NCBI RefSeq assembly: GCF_018607965.1
Contig: NZ_JABBAM010000035.1
Location: forward strand, 1 to 32,540
Length of the DNA stretch: 32,540 nt
Origin: Planktotalea sp.
GTDB taxonomy: Bacteria > Pseudomonadota > Alphaproteobacteria > Rhodobacterales > Rhodobacteraceae
Direction: 5' to 3'
The notes under the pieces were generated by a model. That model did no database searches. It had not been told where the DNA came from and saw only the letters and a list, made by a program, of their open reading frames with translations. Numbering within the stretch: the stretch's first letter is position 1; each line of letters begins with the position of its first letter. Below, piece by piece: positions 4,323-25,807 of the stretch. The translations under genes were made by a program, and so were the position numbers.

Positions 4323-6134
4323 ATGGCACGCGCACCCCTTCTTCAGCTTTCCGACATCTCCCTGACTTTTGGGGGAGATCCTGTATTTGATCACCTTGAT
4401 CTTGCTGTTCAACCTGGCGACCGCGTCGCATTGGTTGGGCGCAATGGATCTGGAAAATCGACCTTGATGAAAGTCATGGCTGGTTTGGTCGAACCTGACA
4501 AAGGTTCAATTGTTGCTGGGCCGGGCATCAATGTTGGCTACATGGAACAAGAGCCCGAGATGAAGGGTTTTGCCACGCTTGGCGATTTCGCATTGAGCGA
4601 ACTTGATCCGTCTGAAGTTTACAAGGTCGAACGCGCTGGTGCGGGTCTGAAATTTGATCCTGCGCGCGCGGTTGAAACCGCTTCTGGTGGAGAGCGCCGT
4701 CGCGCTGCTTTGGCGAAGTTAATGGCGGAAGCCCCCGGTTTGATGTTGCTCGACGAGCCGACAAACCACCTTGATATTGAAGCGATTGGTTGGCTTGAGA
4801 CCGAGTTAAAAACGACGCGCACAGCGTTTGTTTTGATCTCGCATGACCGCGCATTTTTGACGGCTTTGACGCGCGCGACGCTTTGGATTGACCGGGGTCA
4901 AGTGCGCCGTCAGGAAAAAGGCTTTGAGGGCTTTGAAGCATGGCGTGACACTTTGTGGGAAGAAGAAGACATGCAGCGCCACAAGCTTGATCGTAAGATC
5001 AAGTCGGAAGCACGTTGGGCGGTTGAGGGCATTTCTGCGCGTCGCAAGCGCAACCAAGGTCGCGTGCGTGCGTTGCAAGATTTGCGGGCAGAGAAGTCAT
5101 CCCAGATCAAGCGTCAGGGAACAGCTGCGATGGCGCTGGCGGATGGTCAAAAGTCCGGCAAGAAGGTGATTGAGGCGTTCGAGCTGTACAAAGCATTCGA
5201 TGGCAAAGACATCGTTCAGAAGTTTTCGCTCACCATTCAGCGTGGGGATCGCATTGCCTTTGTTGGACCAAACGGTGTTGGCAAAACAACATTGATCAAA
5301 ATGCTGATGGGGCAGGAACCTGTCGATAGCGGCACTGTGAAGCTTGGTAGTAAGCTGGAAGTTGCGATCTTTGATCAAGCGCGCGCGCAGCTTGATCCTG
5401 ATATAACACTTTGGGACAGTCTGACGGGCGATCCTGAAATGCGAGTGTCTGGTAAAGCGGATCAGATCATGGTGCGTGGCATGCCCAAGCATGTTGTCGG
5501 CTACCTGAAAGAATTCCTGTTTGATGACGGTCAAGCGCGCGCACCTGTGCGGTCCTTGTCGGGTGGTGAAAAGGCGCGTCTTTTGCTGGCAAAGATCATG
5601 GCACGCGAAAGCAATGTTCTTGTGCTAGACGAACCCACAAACGATTTGGACGTAGAAACATTGGATCTGTTGCAGGATCTACTGGGCGAATACCCTGGTA
5701 CTGTTTTGTTGGTCAGTCACGATCGTGACTTTTTAGACCGCGTTGCCAACACGACCGTCGCGATGGAAGGCGATGGTCAAGCGACTGTGTATGCGGGCGG
5801 CTGGACCGATTATCAGATGCAGCGCGCAGATGATGTGGCCCAAGCGGTTAAGGCGTCGTCGACCAAGTCTGCGAAAGGTGGTTCTGGAAGCGATGCACCC
5901 AAGACTGGCAAAATGACGTTCAGTGAAAAGCATCGTCTGGAAGAGTTGCCCAAAGAAATGAAGCGCTTGGAGGCAGAAATTGCCAAGCTTGAAGAGTTCT
6001 TGGGCACGCCTGATTTGTTCACGCAAGAACCTGCAAAATTTGCCAAGGCCAGTGACGCGTTGGTTGAGCGCCACACAGCGCTGAGCGATGCAGAGGAAGA
6101 ATGGCTGCTGCTTGAGGAAAAAGCGGGCAGCTGA
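4323..6134 (+). CDS. uup: ABC-F family ATPase (Uup-like)
   Basis: Two Walker A motifs (GRNGSGKST, GPNGVGKTT), two signature motifs (SGGERRRAAL, SGGEKARLLL), LLDEPTNHLD and VLDEPTNDLD, C-terminal coiled coil; no TM segments. Confidence 0.92.
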   Translation: MARAPLLQLSDISLTFGGDPVFDHLDLAVQPGDRVALVGRNGSGKSTLMKVMAGLVEPDKGSIVAGPGINVGYMEQEPEMKGFATLGDFALSELDPSEVYKVERAGAGLKFDPARAVETASGGERRRAALAKLMAEAPGLMLLDEPTNHLDIEAIGWLETELKTTRTAFVLISHDRAFLTALTRATLWIDRGQVRRQEKGFEGFEAWRDTLWEEEDMQRHKLDRKIKSEARWAVEGISARRKRNQGRVRALQDLRAEKSSQIKRQGTAAMALADGQKSGKKVIEAFELYKAFDGKDIVQKFSLTIQRGDRIAFVGPNGVGKTTLIKMLMGQEPVDSGTVKLGSKLEVAIFDQARAQLDPDITLWDSLTGDPEMRVSGKADQIMVRGMPKHVVGYLKEFLFDDGQARAPVRSLSGGEKARLLLAKIMARESNVLVLDEPTNDLDVETLDLLQDLLGEYPGTVLLVSHDRDFLDRVANTTVAMEGDGQATVYAGGWTDYQMQRADDVAQAVKASSTKSAKGGSGSDAPKTGKMTFSEKHRLEELPKEMKRLEAEIAKLEEFLGTPDLFTQEPAKFAKASDALVERHTALSDAEEEWLLLEEKAGS

Positions 6135-6148
6135 TTATCGGCAAATTT

Positions 6149-6196
6149 TGGAGCGGGTAACGGGAATTGAACCTGTACCTAAAGCGTAGGCAGCTT
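6149..6196 (-). pseudogene. tRNA-Gly 3'-half remnant (anticodon stem 3' strand, T-arm, acceptor, CCA); candidate distal att site
   Basis: Minus strand GCTGCCTACGCTTTAGGTACAGGTTCAATTCCCGTTACCCGCTCCA; T-arm ACAGG-TTCAATT-CCCGT (one mismatch), acceptor TACCCGC-T-CCA; no 5' half adjacent. Confidence 0.7.
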
Positions 6197-6221
6197 ACGT
6201 GATGCAAATTTTACCAATGAT

Positions 6222-6945
6222 TTAGTTCACATTCAGTAGCCCGTTTGGTCGGCAGTTTGCGTTTCTCGGTCGCTGTGAAAGGTATTTTGCCCGAGTAACC
6301 CTTCGCCTCGGCAAACCGGCAAACCGGCAGAACGGCAGCGGCCTGTATTGTGAGGCGCTGGATAGGCGATCCCATTCGTTTTCTTTGCCAAACGCCGCTT
6401 GCAGGCAGAGTCCAGTCGCAGCCCAATCGTCGCGAGTACCTGGGTCGTAATTCTTGACAAAGGCATCCGCGAATTCACCGCCTGCCTTGCGTTTAAGGCC
6501 TGCTTTCTTAAGGATGAAGTCAGCAAGCTGTTTCATAACGTCAACGCGCTTTGGTGCATCGAACGTGACCCAGATGTTCATTCCATGACCGCCGCCCGAC
6601 AGGAATAGTTTGTGAGGCATGTCATCTTCGATCAGGGCATAAACGACGTGTGATAGCTGCGCATAAAACCTCACCGACTGTCATTCGCATGTTGTGATCA
6701 TCAATGCCAAAGATAAGACAGCGTGTATTACGGAGTCTTTCAGGATCGTTTTCTGAACCGAGGTTGAGCCAAATAGTGCGAAAGTCTTCGCCATGCGTAA
6801 GGTGTTCACAAATGAGATCATCCCTCAGCGGCTTGCCGATAGGACGATACCACCATTTTTCATCTTTAACGCTCCACTCTCGCACAGGATGGCCGCTCAC
6901 AGTGGCGAGGTCTCGCCACAATTTCACACATTCCATGATGATCAT
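6222..6945 (-). pseudogene. Frameshifted archaeo-eukaryotic primase-like (AEP/PrimPol-type) remnant
   Basis: Two overlapping minus ORFs in different frames: ...WWYRPIGKPLRDDLICEHLTHGEDFRTIWLNLGSENDPERLRNTRCLIFGIDDHNMR... and ...VVYALIEDDMPHKLFLSGGGHGMNIWVTFDAPKRVDVMKQLADFILKKAG...; 'IDDHN' and 'LFLSGGGHGMNIWV' resemble the AEP DxD and SGG(K/R)GxHxW motifs. Confidence 0.5.
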
Positions 6946-6959
6946 CCCCGCGTTTCTAC

Positions 6960-7140
6960 GCGGCTAGATTTCACCTAAGCGTCGAAATCTGATATTTTAT
7001 ACTTTACGCGACCTGCCATCTTGTAGAATTTTAATCCACGCCCATCGCAACGCCACGCTTCAAGCGACGACCGCACAGCCATTGGCTCACGTAGAAGCTC
7101 GTGATTAGACACAACGAAGTGCTTACCTGTCACTGACGTT
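6960..7140 (-). pseudogene. Excisionase/AlpA-like helix-turn-helix remnant
   Basis: VVSNHELLREPMAVRSSLEAWRCDGRGLKFYKMAGRVKYKISDFDA followed by TAG where this family usually has Trp ('DFDAW'). Confidence 0.55.
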
Positions 7141-7174
7141 GGCGAGTGGCGACCATTTGAGGCGTGCGGGCTAC

Positions 7175-7959
7175 CGCACATGCAGAACCTGCTTCTTGGC
7201 ATGAAACACATAGTCGGAACGATACACCTTCAACGGTTCAATGATTGCGTGATGCTCAGGAAGTAGGGGCAGGTCGAACGCACGACCGTTCTTCGTTTCG
7301 GGCGGGTGCGTATCTTGGATTTGATCCCAGCGCAGCGACAGGGCTTCTTCCCATCGCAAATCCGTAAAGAGCAGGAACCGATAGAAGGCGCGGTGAACGT
7401 CATTCGGTAGGTTGTCCACAGCTTCACGCCAAGCTTTGAGGCCTGTTCTGCGTACCACTCAATCGCCATTGTTGGGCTTTCGGGACGGTCAAATGTGCGC
7501 CGCGCTTGCCGCTCTTTACTATACGCTTATGCGACGACACGCACATATCCTTTGTGATTTCGTCGAGCAGCTCGTGAAGCCATTTAGACAGATGATTGCG
7601 CATCTGACCTTTGATCAACGTCTTGTTGGCGTCTGTTCGCAGCTTGGGACGGGCAAGATAGGTTTCCATCGGCCGTTCCAGTGTAGGCACCTTCGCCAGT
7701 GCGAGACATTTTGCTGAAACGCAGAGGCTTGGTCAGTTGCTAGTTGTAATGCGTCACCACGAGCGTTGGCTGCGGGCACCTGTGGGACGTTGCAAGGCTT
7801 TGTCCGTTGGGTGCGTCCATTACGTCATGCTGAAAGTAAAAGGTCTTGCGTGCTTTGCCTGTGAAAAGGCCGAAACCTTAGACCTCAGTGTCCCAAATCT
7901 TTTCGTTTGGCGGACCCTTTTAGCAAGCTGTTTGGGTAAGCTTTTTTTACTGCTGCCAT
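7175..7959 (-). pseudogene. Tyrosine integrase remnant, multiply frameshifted and apparently lacking the C-terminal catalytic region
   Basis: Pieces in several minus frames: MAAVKKAYPNSLLKGSAKRKDLG (start 7959), ARKTFYFQHDV (arm-binding-like), METYLARPKLRTDANKTLIKGQMRNHLSKWLHELLDEIT, WREAVDNLPNDVHRAFYRFLLFTDLRWEEALSLRWDQI (box I-like 'TDLRWEEALSLRW'); no convincing box II or Tyr. Confidence 0.65.
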
Positions 7960-8075
7960 AATTAGTCATGCCTTTGTAAGCGCTTTGCGGATAAATCACC
8001 GCAATTCGCTAGAACAAGGCGGGGCGAACACTCAACCGTTTGTCCAATATTTTCAAAGGTCTTGGTACGTTTTGG

Positions 8076-8138
8076 TGGAGTACGGTAGAGAACACGTTAT
8101 GTTGAGACGCTGCCGTGATACCTCTTCACCATACCCGC
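8076..8138 (-). pseudogene. tRNA-Gly remnant with well-preserved 5' half and degenerate 3' half
   Basis: Minus strand GCGGGTATGGTGAAGAGGTATCACGGCAGC (acceptor, D-arm, anticodon stem 5' strand), then GTCTCAACATAACGTGTTCTCTACCGTACTCCACC; about 63 nt instead of about 74; no anticodon stem partner or T-arm. Confidence 0.65.
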
Positions 8139-8182: not shown

Positions 8183-10228
8183 TTAGCCGCGTCGTTTGCG
8201 ACGACGTCCACCACCCTCGCCATCACCACCGCCTGTATTGAAACTAACGTTCGGCAAGGTTGTGATCTTACTGAGCTCGGGGAAAGGGTCCGTCTTGTGC
8301 GGTATCGCGCTGGCATTGATAAAGTGCTCTTGGAATTTCGGTTCAATCGCGGTTTCGACTTTGGTGATCTGACCAACGGTGGCTTCGATTTCGGCGCGCG
8401 ACGTCACGTTGCAAAGGGCAATGCGTGCGCCTGTACCAGCGGCGTTTCCTGCACTGGTCACCTTATCAAGGGGTGCATCTGGGATCATACCAAGCACCAT
8501 CGCGTGTTTGGGCGAGATATGCGCGCCGAATGCTCCTGCGAGGACAACACGATCTACAGTGTCTACACCGCGTTCATCCATTAAAAGGCGCGCACCTGCG
8601 TAAAGCGCTGATTTCGCGAGCTGAATCGCACGAATGTCGCCCTGTGTCACGGTGATGCGTGGTCCACCATCCGCTGTTCCATCATGGATCAAATAGGAAT
8701 GTGTGCGTCCCTCGGGGAAACTGCGTTGTGTGCCTGTTTGCGAGGCTGATCCAATTAAGCCGCTTTCATCAAGCAGTCCCGCCATGCGCATTTCAGCGAC
8801 GGCCTCAATAATGCCAGAGCCACAGATCCCAGTGATTCCAGAGGTCGCAACAGCAAGATCGAACCCATCTTCATCAGACCAAATGTCAGAGCCGATCACG
8901 CGAAAACGCGGTTCTTTGGTGGCGGGGTTTATTTCAAGGCGCTCAATCGCACCGGGGGCGGCGCGCTGGCCTGAACTGATCTGCGCACCTTCAAAGGCTG
9001 GGCCTGTGGGGGAAGAGCACGCAAGCACACGGCTTTCGTCACCAAGCAAGATTTCGGCGTTAGTGCCCACATCAACTATGAGTACCAAGTCTTTGGATTT
9101 ACCGGGCTCTTCGGACAATGCAACAGCAGCGGCGTCTGCGCCAACATGGCCTGCAATGCACGGCAGAAGGTAGACACGCCCGTTGTCATTCATCGCGTGC
9201 AGATCCATTTCGCGCGCATCAAGGCTCATTGAGCCAGACGTTGCGAGCGCAAATGGCGCTTGGCCAAGTTCGACAGGATCAATGCCCAAAAGCAGGTGGT
9301 GCATCACGGGATTACATACAAAGACGGTTTCAAAAATCGCGTTCGGATCAATGTCGGCCTCAGTTGCGATGCTTTCGATCAAGCCGTTGATAGATGTGCG
9401 CACGGCAACGGTCATTTCGACGTCGCCGCCCGGGTTCATCATGACGTAGGAAACGCGGCTCATCAGGTCTTCACCAAACCTAATTTGCGGGTTCATCAGG
9501 CCAGAGGACGCTTTGACTTCGCCTGTCACAAGATCACACAAATGCGCTGCGATGGTGGTTGATCCAAGGTCAATTGCAAGGCCGTAAAGACCACCTTCAT
9601 AAAGACCGGGCCAAACATCCAAAATGCGCGCGTGCTCTTCATCGTGCCCCTTATTCAGCGCGACGGAGATCTGCCATTTGCCTTTGCGCAAAGCCGGTTG
9701 CAGTTTACTTAGGACGGGCAGGGCAGTGCGGACATCGTCAATATCCCATTGTTCTTTTAACGCACGTGCGACGCGCTCAAGATCGCCTGTTGGCGTGTGC
9801 ATGTCGGGTTCATCAACTTCGACGAAATATAGGCGCGTTGCCGGATCCATCGTGATCGCGCGGTTTGAAGCGGCCTTGCGGATCACCTGCTTATGCACTT
9901 GGCTTTCTTCAGGCACATCGATCACAATGTTACCTTGTACCGTCGCCTGACACCCTAAGCGGCGACCTGCTTTCAGGCCACGCTTATCATCATAACGTTG
10001 CTCGACTGAATTCCACTCGGACAAAGCGCCCTCAACAGCCGTCACGCCATGTTTGGAGAAATCTCCATAAGACGGGGTGATCTGACATTTGGAACAAATC
10101 CCGCGACCCCCACAGACGCTGTCAAGATCAACTCCAAGCTGACGTGCAGCCGTGAGGACAGGTGTGCCAAGTGGAAAGTGACCACGCTTGCCAGAAGGCG
10201 TGAAGACTACAAGAGGATCGCCAGACAT
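8183..10228 (-). CDS. ASKHA-domain ferredoxin-type reductive activator of corrinoid enzymes (RACE/RamA-like, DUF4445)
   Basis: N-terminal 2Fe-2S motif (CGGRGICSKC), ASKHA motifs (GLAIDLGSTTIAAHL, VLIVDVGTNAEILLG, VLAGAFGAHI), conserved CNPVMHHLLLGIDP. Confidence 0.9.
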   Translation of the reverse strand: MSGDPLVVFTPSGKRGHFPLGTPVLTAARQLGVDLDSVCGGRGICSKCQITPSYGDFSKHGVTAVEGALSEWNSVEQRYDDKRGLKAGRRLGCQATVQGNIVIDVPEESQVHKQVIRKAASNRAITMDPATRLYFVEVDEPDMHTPTGDLERVARALKEQWDIDDVRTALPVLSKLQPALRKGKWQISVALNKGHDEEHARILDVWPGLYEGGLYGLAIDLGSTTIAAHLCDLVTGEVKASSGLMNPQIRFGEDLMSRVSYVMMNPGGDVEMTVAVRTSINGLIESIATEADIDPNAIFETVFVCNPVMHHLLLGIDPVELGQAPFALATSGSMSLDAREMDLHAMNDNGRVYLLPCIAGHVGADAAAVALSEEPGKSKDLVLIVDVGTNAEILLGDESRVLACSSPTGPAFEGAQISSGQRAAPGAIERLEINPATKEPRFRVIGSDIWSDEDGFDLAVATSGITGICGSGIIEAVAEMRMAGLLDESGLIGSASQTGTQRSFPEGRTHSYLIHDGTADGGPRITVTQGDIRAIQLAKSALYAGARLLMDERGVDTVDRVVLAGAFGAHISPKHAMVLGMIPDAPLDKVTSAGNAAGTGARIALCNVTSRAEIEATVGQITKVETAIEPKFQEHFINASAIPHKTDPFPELSKITTLPNVSFNTGGGDGEGGGRRRKRRG

Positions 10229-24265: not shown

Positions 24266-25807
24266 TTACGCAGGTAAATAAATGTTAAATTGCGCACGTA
24301 TTGCACTGTCTAAGGTTGCATCGAATCTGGCATTTGAACGCGTGGCAAGAATCTCTTGTTTGCGCGCCTTGGCTTTTTCAACCAAAACTGGCTTGCCGAG
24401 TTCGACCCATTCCTTGGGCGAGGTCCGATCCCCCAAGGTTGGATACACGTGATCCGTTTGCATCCGACCCAGTGTTGCATCGGTGCCCAAATAGTGATTT
24501 GGCCCGCCCATGCACACGGCTGCAATTTGATCCAGCGCGAGGGTTTCGTCGTTCACTTCGATCCCGCGCACACAGCGCATTGCTTGGCCGATCAGGTCAT
24601 CGCTAAGGATAAGGCTTTCGTGGCAAAAGCCCAAGAGCGACGAATGCATACCAGCTGCTTCGTATACCATGTTTAAACCAGACAGACCTGCCATGACGTT
24701 GGAACACATCTGTTCCCATCCGGCCTGCATGTCCGGCATTTTGGAATCTGATGCGCCACCCGCCGCACCACCCGGCACGTCGTAAAACGCATGCATTTGC
24801 GCACAGCCCGCGCTTAGTAGCGCCTGTTCGCCTGATCCTACCGACATTGCGCCCGTGCGCAGATCAAGGCCGAAAGGCCATGTGCCAAAGACCGCAGGAT
24901 GGCCGGGGACGATTGCGTTCACATAAACCAGACCCGCAAGGCACTCTGCTGTCGCTTGGGTGATCGCGCCCGCAATTGTCGAAGGTGCTGTCGCGCCCGC
25001 CATGCCCGCAGACAAGAGCAAGACAGGCATACCGCCTTTGATGCAGGCCTCCATGACTTCGCAGGCCTCCGTCGCAAATTTCATTGGTGGAACGACAAAA
25101 CAGTTGGAATTGGACAAAAACGGACGCTCGCGCCATTTATCTTCACCACCTGCAATTTTGTGCAGCATTTCAAGCGCGTGGGGCACAAAGCTGGGTTCGG
25201 TAAAGGACGTTCCAATATGTTTGTTCGTCCCGCTGGTGCAGGCGTAGATCGTGTTCAAATCCATTTCCAGATTGTCGGAAATATCGCGCGCCACCATGGG
25301 GCGCTGCACAAAGTTAATATTGTCGAGCACATCACAAATACGCGCGGCATCGTGCAAGTCTTGGATAGTTGACTCGCGGTAGGCATGGCCCTCAACATCG
25401 ACCATATGAACTGCTGCACCCGCAGTGCCGTAGTGGACGCGCTGTCCTGACAGATCGAGGTCGTTTTTGCCGTCACGACTGAACAAAACCACATCGCGGT
25501 TGGCTTTGGCCAAAGCATCCTCAACTAAGGCGCGCGGGAAACGGATGCGACCATCATCGCCCAAGATCGCGCCAGCGCCCGTTAGGATTTTAACGCCGGA
25601 GGGTGGCGCATCTGCTAGCCCAATTGTCTCTAACGCGGTTAATGCAGCTTGATGGATTTTTTCCACATCCATGTCGCTAAGGGGTTTGTACTGACCGCCC
25701 TCCATGCCGGCCCGAATAGGGCGCATGTGGTCGGGTAATTTATTGGAACGTGCTTCGCGGCGTGCATTGCGTCCACCAGAGCGGCGGGATGGGGTTTGAT
25801 CGTTCAT
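24266..25807 (-). CDS. Trimethylamine methyltransferase family protein (MttB superfamily, non-pyrrolysine; MtgB-like); start at 25807 rather than 25924
   Basis: MNDQTPSRRSGGRNARREARS...; body 'VHYGTAGAAVHMVDVEGHAYRESTIQDLHDAARICDVLDNINFVQRPMVARDI', 'GGMPVLLLSAGMAGATAPSTIAGAITQATAECLAGLV', COG5598-like; no internal amber codon. Confidence 0.88.
   Translation of the reverse strand: MNDQTPSRRSGGRNARREARSNKLPDHMRPIRAGMEGGQYKPLSDMDVEKIHQAALTALETIGLADAPPSGVKILTGAGAILGDDGRIRFPRALVEDALAKANRDVVLFSRDGKNDLDLSGQRVHYGTAGAAVHMVDVEGHAYRESTIQDLHDAARICDVLDNINFVQRPMVARDISDNLEMDLNTIYACTSGTNKHIGTSFTEPSFVPHALEMLHKIAGGEDKWRERPFLSNSNCFVVPPMKFATEACEVMEACIKGGMPVLLLSAGMAGATAPSTIAGAITQATAECLAGLVYVNAIVPGHPAVFGTWPFGLDLRTGAMSVGSGEQALLSAGCAQMHAFYDVPGGAAGGASDSKMPDMQAGWEQMCSNVMAGLSGLNMVYEAAGMHSSLLGFCHESLILSDDLIGQAMRCVRGIEVNDETLALDQIAAVCMGGPNHYLGTDATLGRMQTDHVYPTLGDRTSPKEWVELGKPVLVEKAKARKQEILATRSNARFDATLDSAIRAQFNIYLPA

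Follow-up and report, generated by a model that had tools for sequence, protein, structure and literature searches.

The DNA analyzed here (the window) is a stretch of 32,540 nucleotides from a Planktotalea sp. draft genome (GCF_018607965.1, contig NZ_JABBAM010000035.1; G000 below), in which a tRNA-Gly(CCC) gene lies in two parts on either side of a decayed mobile element. The 5' part occupies positions 8109 to 8138 on the minus strand and comprises the 5' strand of the acceptor stem, the D arm, and the 5' strand of the anticodon stem; it matches the congeners' tRNA-Gly(CCC) at 29/30 positions and lies at the orthologous position in congeners G001, G003, G004, and G005. The displaced 3' part, which includes the decayed right copy of the attachment (att) core (TGCCTAC), was located on the same strand at 6150 to 6195, with 41/46 positions identical to the congeners' tRNA-Gly(CCC) and a BLAST E value of 1.9e-16 against that of G001. 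The original prediction, made by a model from the letters alone, had recognized both halves about 1.9 kb apart, and the comparison with congeners bears it out. Strand and order are preserved, and the flanks are as expected: a gene for a RACE-type protein (8183 to 10228, minus strand) has its 3' end at 8183, and a gene for a uup-type ABC-F ATPase (4323 to 6134, plus strand) has its 3' end at 6134 (both names are from the original prediction).

In all four of these congeners, the orthologous site has an intact tRNA-Gly(CCC) of 74 nt, as called by ARAGORN, which adjoins the RACE orthologue (91 to 92% identical) on the side toward uup, with the uup orthologue (84 to 88% identical) on the other side of the tRNA. 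Related genomes lacking a tRNA between uup and RACE would have refuted the original prediction; four congeners carry one, and on this point it is not refuted. The G001 locus is an empty site, as it contains nothing besides tRNA-Gly(CCC) between the two genes. ARAGORN detected no tRNA anywhere in the window and none at either tRNA-Gly junction. The two sequences are parts of a single tRNA-Gly(CCC) gene that has been split by a mobile element. The 3' part begins within the anticodon stem-loop (AGCTgCCtAcGC versus AGCTTCCCAAGC), the correct register being that of the ungapped alignment to the orthologue; the complementarity of GGCAGC with GCTGCC, which the original prediction had taken as a match between the halves, is a chance pairing.

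The two parts are separated by a decayed integrative element of 1.9 kb, which holds an integrase pseudogene, the N terminus of a primase gene, and a right attachment arm, all on the minus strand. Its translated pieces are colinear with an integrase of 388 to 398 amino acids and a primase of 845 amino acids from other genera (G186, G015, and G392). Next to the 5' part of the tRNA is a decayed left core copy (8102 to 8108), reading GTCTCAA for the TTCCCAA of the anticodon loop (5/7 identical); in intact relatives, CTTCC(C)AA and a few further base pairs make up the core. It is followed by the left end of the element (7961 to 8101), a leader from the core to the integrase which has an arm-like CCGCAAAGCGCTTACAAA at 7990 to 7973 and aligns with the left ends of the G186, G392, and G259 elements. 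The integrase pseudogene (7080 to 7959), a tyrosine recombinase interrupted by frameshifts and stops, is recognized by tblastx and tblastn pieces that are ordered along the intact integrases of G186, G015, and G392, and it matches a PHROG integrase (E = 2.8e-9). An integrase remnant had been proposed and is confirmed by that match; the excisionase-like remnant proposed with it found no Pfam support, and part of it is the C terminus of the integrase. The primase pseudogene (6249 to 7041; AEP/PriCT_2 type) retains only its N-terminal part, less than half of the full length; it is frameshifted, colinear with the G186 primase (65% identity; 58% to that of G015), and ends at a probable deletion junction (6251 to 6261). 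The right attachment arm (P', 6196 to 6250) aligns with the right ends of the G186, G392, and G259 elements.

Twenty-one relatives of the element, mostly intact, were found in other genera, with their target, a tRNA-Gly(CCC) or tRNA-Gly(UCC) gene, split in the anticodon loop; besides the window, five targets are CCC genes and the remaining ones are UCC genes. The integrases of G186 and G015 score above the cut-offs for both PF00589 and PF13356, and that of G392 is above for PF00589 and just below for PF13356. A split, unrestored tRNA-Gly gene lies beside the integrase at 21 of the 23 integrase loci (identified by a core scan, with the inverted G015 element and G247 assigned by reading the sequence); no split tRNA adjoins the second integrase copies in G065 (contig C9) and G270. 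Several relatives (such as G396, G420, G298, G036, G065, G299, and G389) are divided over contigs, and their ends were paired per genome. Within about 1.5 kb on either side of the relatives' integrases, ARAGORN found no tRNA, and the Rfam tRNA model scored the left junctions of G186 and G392 at 24.1 and 26.3 bits, both below the cut-off of 29. In the 12 elements for which both ends could be compared, the identity between element and target extends over only 7 to 15 bp, the loop plus a few bases, and the target gene is therefore restored at neither junction. Empty sites are known for both targets, for CCC in G001 and for UCC in congeners of G409; the computed join of the two G409 flanks is matched across the joint in G783 and G781, both of which have an intact tRNA-Gly(UCC).

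These junctions bear on the original prediction, which took the insert for an ordinary tRNA-targeting island whose own tRNA 3' half had restored the gene at the left end, the restored half having then decayed. Integration in the anticodon loop and a decayed integrase-bearing element between the halves are supported by our comparisons. Reviews state that integration rebuilds an intact tRNA (PMC8371274, PMC4383910), and this restoring arrangement is usual for tRNA-targeting islands. More distant relatives of the integrase, in other families, are found at tRNA-Gly(GCC), and one of these, G642, restores its target in the ordinary way, with a complete tRNA-Gly(GCC) at one end and a displaced identical 3' half at the other. 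In the window, however, the supposed degenerate 3' part ending in TACTCCACC is no tRNA remnant: the sequence that follows the 5' half has 9/37 identities to the tRNA 3' half, as expected by chance (the mean over random window positions is 9.3), and intact elements align with it at their left ends. Nor does any close relative with an identifiable junction have a restored tRNA beside its integrase. We therefore regard restoration followed by decay as very improbable.

A complete tRNA-Gly gene is instead present at the far end of the relatives, wherever that end was recovered, directly before the displaced 3' half of the host gene. In most elements its anticodon lies exactly 137 bp from the crossover, the exceptions being G186 (149 bp), G392 (119 bp), and G259 (1,199 bp). 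A TTGAC-like, promoter-like box precedes most of these replacement tRNAs, and directly after them are repeats of the CCKACAAA/CCTRCAAA type; the spacer is probably a second attachment arm, because its repeats resemble those just before the integrase. When the 397 sampled genomes of the family were searched for the tandem signature of complete tRNA, spacer, and 3' half, 21 matched, nearly always with the 137-bp spacing, and the reversed-pattern control matched none. Six of the genomes with the signature (G010, G223, G296, G384, G265, and G326, at L240, L238, L241, L243, L249, and L256) are additional to those that passed the integrase threshold. Class-wide, matches to the tandem pattern outside the family were considered and set aside, as 33/34 among the matches listed look like ordinary tRNA-Tyr-tRNA-Gly arrays. 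In G171, G084, G100, G409, and G247, all listed as 99 to 100% complete, the element copy is the sole full-length tRNA-Gly(UCC) detected by a search with a UCC query; the other full-length match to this query (about 72%) is accounted for by the GCC gene, as typed by ARAGORN in G000. A single, element-borne UCC copy in these five genomes is consistent with an essential tRNA being carried on the element.

It might be argued that the complete tRNA at the right end is not cargo and instead marks a restored junction, belonging either to a tandem array or to a second, tiny element of the standard kind. A complete tRNA, a short spacer, and a 3' half do resemble a miniature standard island, and tandem accretion is possible, as G099 has a split 5' half and a complete copy with a common 5' flank. 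However, the G015 element is inverted, and its complete tRNA is still found at the element's own right end and on the element's strand, where it adjoins the host 5' half; we take the replacement tRNA to be cargo rather than a product of the junction because it keeps the same end and strand in this inversion. Many of the complete copies also diverge from the host halves and are positioned after element sequence, and the spacer contains the arm-like motif that is also present before the integrase. We accordingly give the second-element explanation hardly any credence. The replacement tRNA-Gly(CCC) of the G015 element (L144, 1487 to 1560) is very unlike that of its host (GCGGGCGTGGTATATGGGTTGTGCC...), which suggests a distant source. 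Least probable of all is a truly split tRNA gene of the kind seen in some archaea, with separate transcription of the halves followed by joining in trans: the halves are recognizable and in order in many genomes, but the intact relatives also have a complete tRNA-Gly, so that trans-splicing would be superfluous, the window halves are altered by substitutions within the anticodon loop and near it, such that their computed join has the anticodon CCU and is called as tRNA-Arg, and congeners have the unsplit gene.

The window element differs from its intact relatives in being truncated and in having no cognate tRNA, since none is present in the window and the segment expected to hold it is deleted. 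At the junction, a short microhomology links primase codons (CGCAA[A/G]CTGC; CGCAAACTGC) to the sequence of the right arm (ACAAACTGCCTACAAA), as judged from the right-end alignment and the primase codons of G186 and G015, and the intact primase (CGCAAGCTGC) and intact arm (ACAAACTGCC) are alike there. The probable cause is an internal deletion that joined primase and right arm at the CAA[A/G]CTGC microhomology. If the window element was once organized like its relatives, the replacement tRNA would have been part of what was lost; both the route of the deletion and the former presence of this tRNA we infer. Precise excision could hardly restore a CCC tRNA because both core copies are mutated (GTCTCAA and TGCCTAC instead of TTCCCAA). 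The window therefore holds the remnant of a tRNA-replacing element and not a functioning one. Genes for tRNA-Gly with the anticodons GCC and UCC are present in G000, and no CCC gene is among those found. Because the assembly is a 91% complete draft in which only about 20 tRNAs were found, loss of tRNA-Gly(CCC) from the source lineage, with host gene and spare both apparently gone, is probable, short of proven; the original prediction had anticipated the loss of this locus. By wobble rules tRNA-Gly(UCC) is able to read GGG, and the UCC tRNA alone reads GGA; GGG in the source organism is presumably read by tRNA-Gly(UCC), which G000 has. A relaxation of codon usage was considered as further evidence and rejected: in four window genes, 12.9% of the codons for Gly are GGG, compared with 14.5 to 23.5% in congeners, a sample that is too small.

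Taken as a whole, the locus is best explained, and we hold this with high confidence, as the wreck of an integrative element from a family that uses tRNA replacement in place of tRNA restoration. In this family the tyrosine integrase acts on the anticodon loop of a host tRNA-Gly gene, with which the element shares a core that is very short, and integration separates the 5' and 3' halves without regenerating the gene at either end. The intact element brings its own complete tRNA-Gly, with a promoter-like box upstream, just inside the right attachment arm, and this tRNA would take over decoding; we infer that it is expressed and complements the host gene. In the source genome, the integrase and primase have decayed to pseudogenes and the internal deletion would have taken out the replacement tRNA, leaving neither the host nor the element copy of tRNA-Gly(CCC). 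The sequences themselves show the split, the orthology with the congeners' gene, the failure to restore it, the att cores, the replacement tRNAs of the relatives, and the truncation of the window element. Several observations weigh against this account. The left and right ends of some relatives are paired within the genome and lack contig linkage, and no far-end pair was found for G128. No vestige of a replacement tRNA is left in the window copy, its former presence being suggested by the relatives, and a CCC gene may lie in the part missing from the G000 draft.

In G785, the site used in G409 is split by another, second element of about 37 kb, again with the 137-bp arrangement. In G099, the split 5' half on contig C1 and the complete tRNA have a common 5' flank (L107, 819; L126, 16533 and 16718; L108, 19065), and the 3' half on C1 is a better fit to the 5' half on C9, which suggests that an element was inserted in the tRNA of another element or that two elements recombined. 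G084 has a second, incomplete tRNA-Gly(UCC) 5' part (L216, about 5892 to 5935; C1:2470891 to 2470934, minus strand) followed by an arm-like CCGACAAATTACATACAAAA; this looks like what is left of the right end of a further decayed element. A different insert in congener G005, of 7.7 kb between tRNA-Gly(CCC) and uup (L024, 9346 to 17018), was examined as a possible related element and rejected; the tRNA is intact, no tRNA fragment was found in the insert, and its open reading frames, inspected by eye, are transposase-, AMP-ligase-, P450-, and AbrB-like.

Annotation of the elements was partial. The G186 element, with portal and terminase genes and a BsuBI/PstI-type restriction gene with its methylase, looks satellite-like, and the G392 element encodes a primase and a cytosine methylase. 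The parts examined of the G171, G100, and G409 elements contain transposases, GGDEF/EAL signaling genes, and transporter, metabolic, and other cargo genes, without structural phage genes, and these elements look like cargo islands. In the integrase tree, which leaves many forks open and has long deep branches, four CCC elements form one clade and the fifth (G389) lies apart, beside a UCC element, and the target has therefore changed at least once. Searches of IMG/VR yielded no integrase relatives, and those in phage and plasmid collections were all below 30% identity among the matches listed. A primase search of GTDB contigs gave one distant actinomycete match. Elsewhere in the window, positions 24655 to 24754 on the minus strand match Rfam PYLIS_3 (the pyrrolysine insertion element of mttB) above the cut-off; this probably reflects similarity to mttB and not a working element, because it lies inside an uninterrupted 552-amino-acid open reading frame.

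These results give a prevalence figure for one alphaproteobacterial family, in which each of two criteria detects such elements in about 5% of the 397 genomes (20 by integrase, 21 by the tandem-tRNA signature) and 26 genomes are detected by one or the other, and they suggest that the strategy extends beyond phages. Because the distance between tRNA and crossover is fixed, a pattern search picks up the elements easily. Island finders that seek a restored tRNA and one fragment would tend to mis-map them, because the complete tRNA copy sits inside the element. On balance, and with modest confidence, we favor the view that islands and satellites of this family, outside phages, repeatedly overwrite the host tRNA-Gly(UCC), the expected sole reader of GGA. 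The essential tRNA would thus become element-borne and tie the host to the element, successive elements may swap tRNAs (as perhaps in G099), and decay can cost an isoacceptor, as appears to have happened with CCC in the window.

Standard islands, as defined by Islander (PMC4383910), have in common with these elements a tyrosine integrase, a crossover in the anticodon loop, and a displaced tRNA fragment at the far end. They differ in that they restore the target by means of a carried tDNA fragment, whereas the family described here carries a whole gene and restores nothing; an attP tDNA fragment that restores the target was found neither in the relatives nor in the window element. Closer precedents come from prophages. 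In the alphaproteobacterium Sinorhizobium meliloti, prophages inactivate a tRNA-Leu(UAG) gene by integration and have a functional equivalent (PMC11476347), a small precedent without a family-wide architecture. The Lactobacillus johnsonii prophage Lj965, as cited in PMC10865867, likewise leaves its tRNA unrestored and encodes the cognate tRNA, in this case in a Lactobacillus prophage.

The closest counterpart is the tRNA-dependent lysogeny of actinobacteriophages (PMC10865867; Guerrero-Bustamante and Hatfull, mBio 2024), in which the core is short, the tRNA is not rebuilt, and lysogeny requires that the phage supply a tRNA of the same isotype, as shown in mycobacteriophages. Both systems have a tyrosine integrase, an attB in a tRNA gene, and no tRNA rebuilt at attL or attR, their cores are of similar length (about 8 to 17 bp in actinobacteriophages and 7 to 15 bp here), and in both, related integrases that do rebuild the tRNA exist. 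The prevalence of the mechanism outside actinobacteriophages was said to need further investigation (PMC10865867). Here the hosts are alphaproteobacteria and the targets tRNA-Gly(UCC) and tRNA-Gly(CCC), in contrast to Lys, Ile2, or Leu tRNAs, and the carriers are satellite-like elements and cargo islands, in which no complete phage gene set was found; to judge from gene content, most do not look like phages. In the present family, distinctively, the replacement tRNA lies beside the arm that is not next to the integrase, at a distance from the crossover that hardly departs from 137 bp, and there is a decayed case in which both tRNAs are apparently gone. In their genomic features the relatives correspond to tRNA-dependent lysogeny, and by analogy with the mycobacteriophages their hosts may likewise depend on the tRNA that the element supplies.
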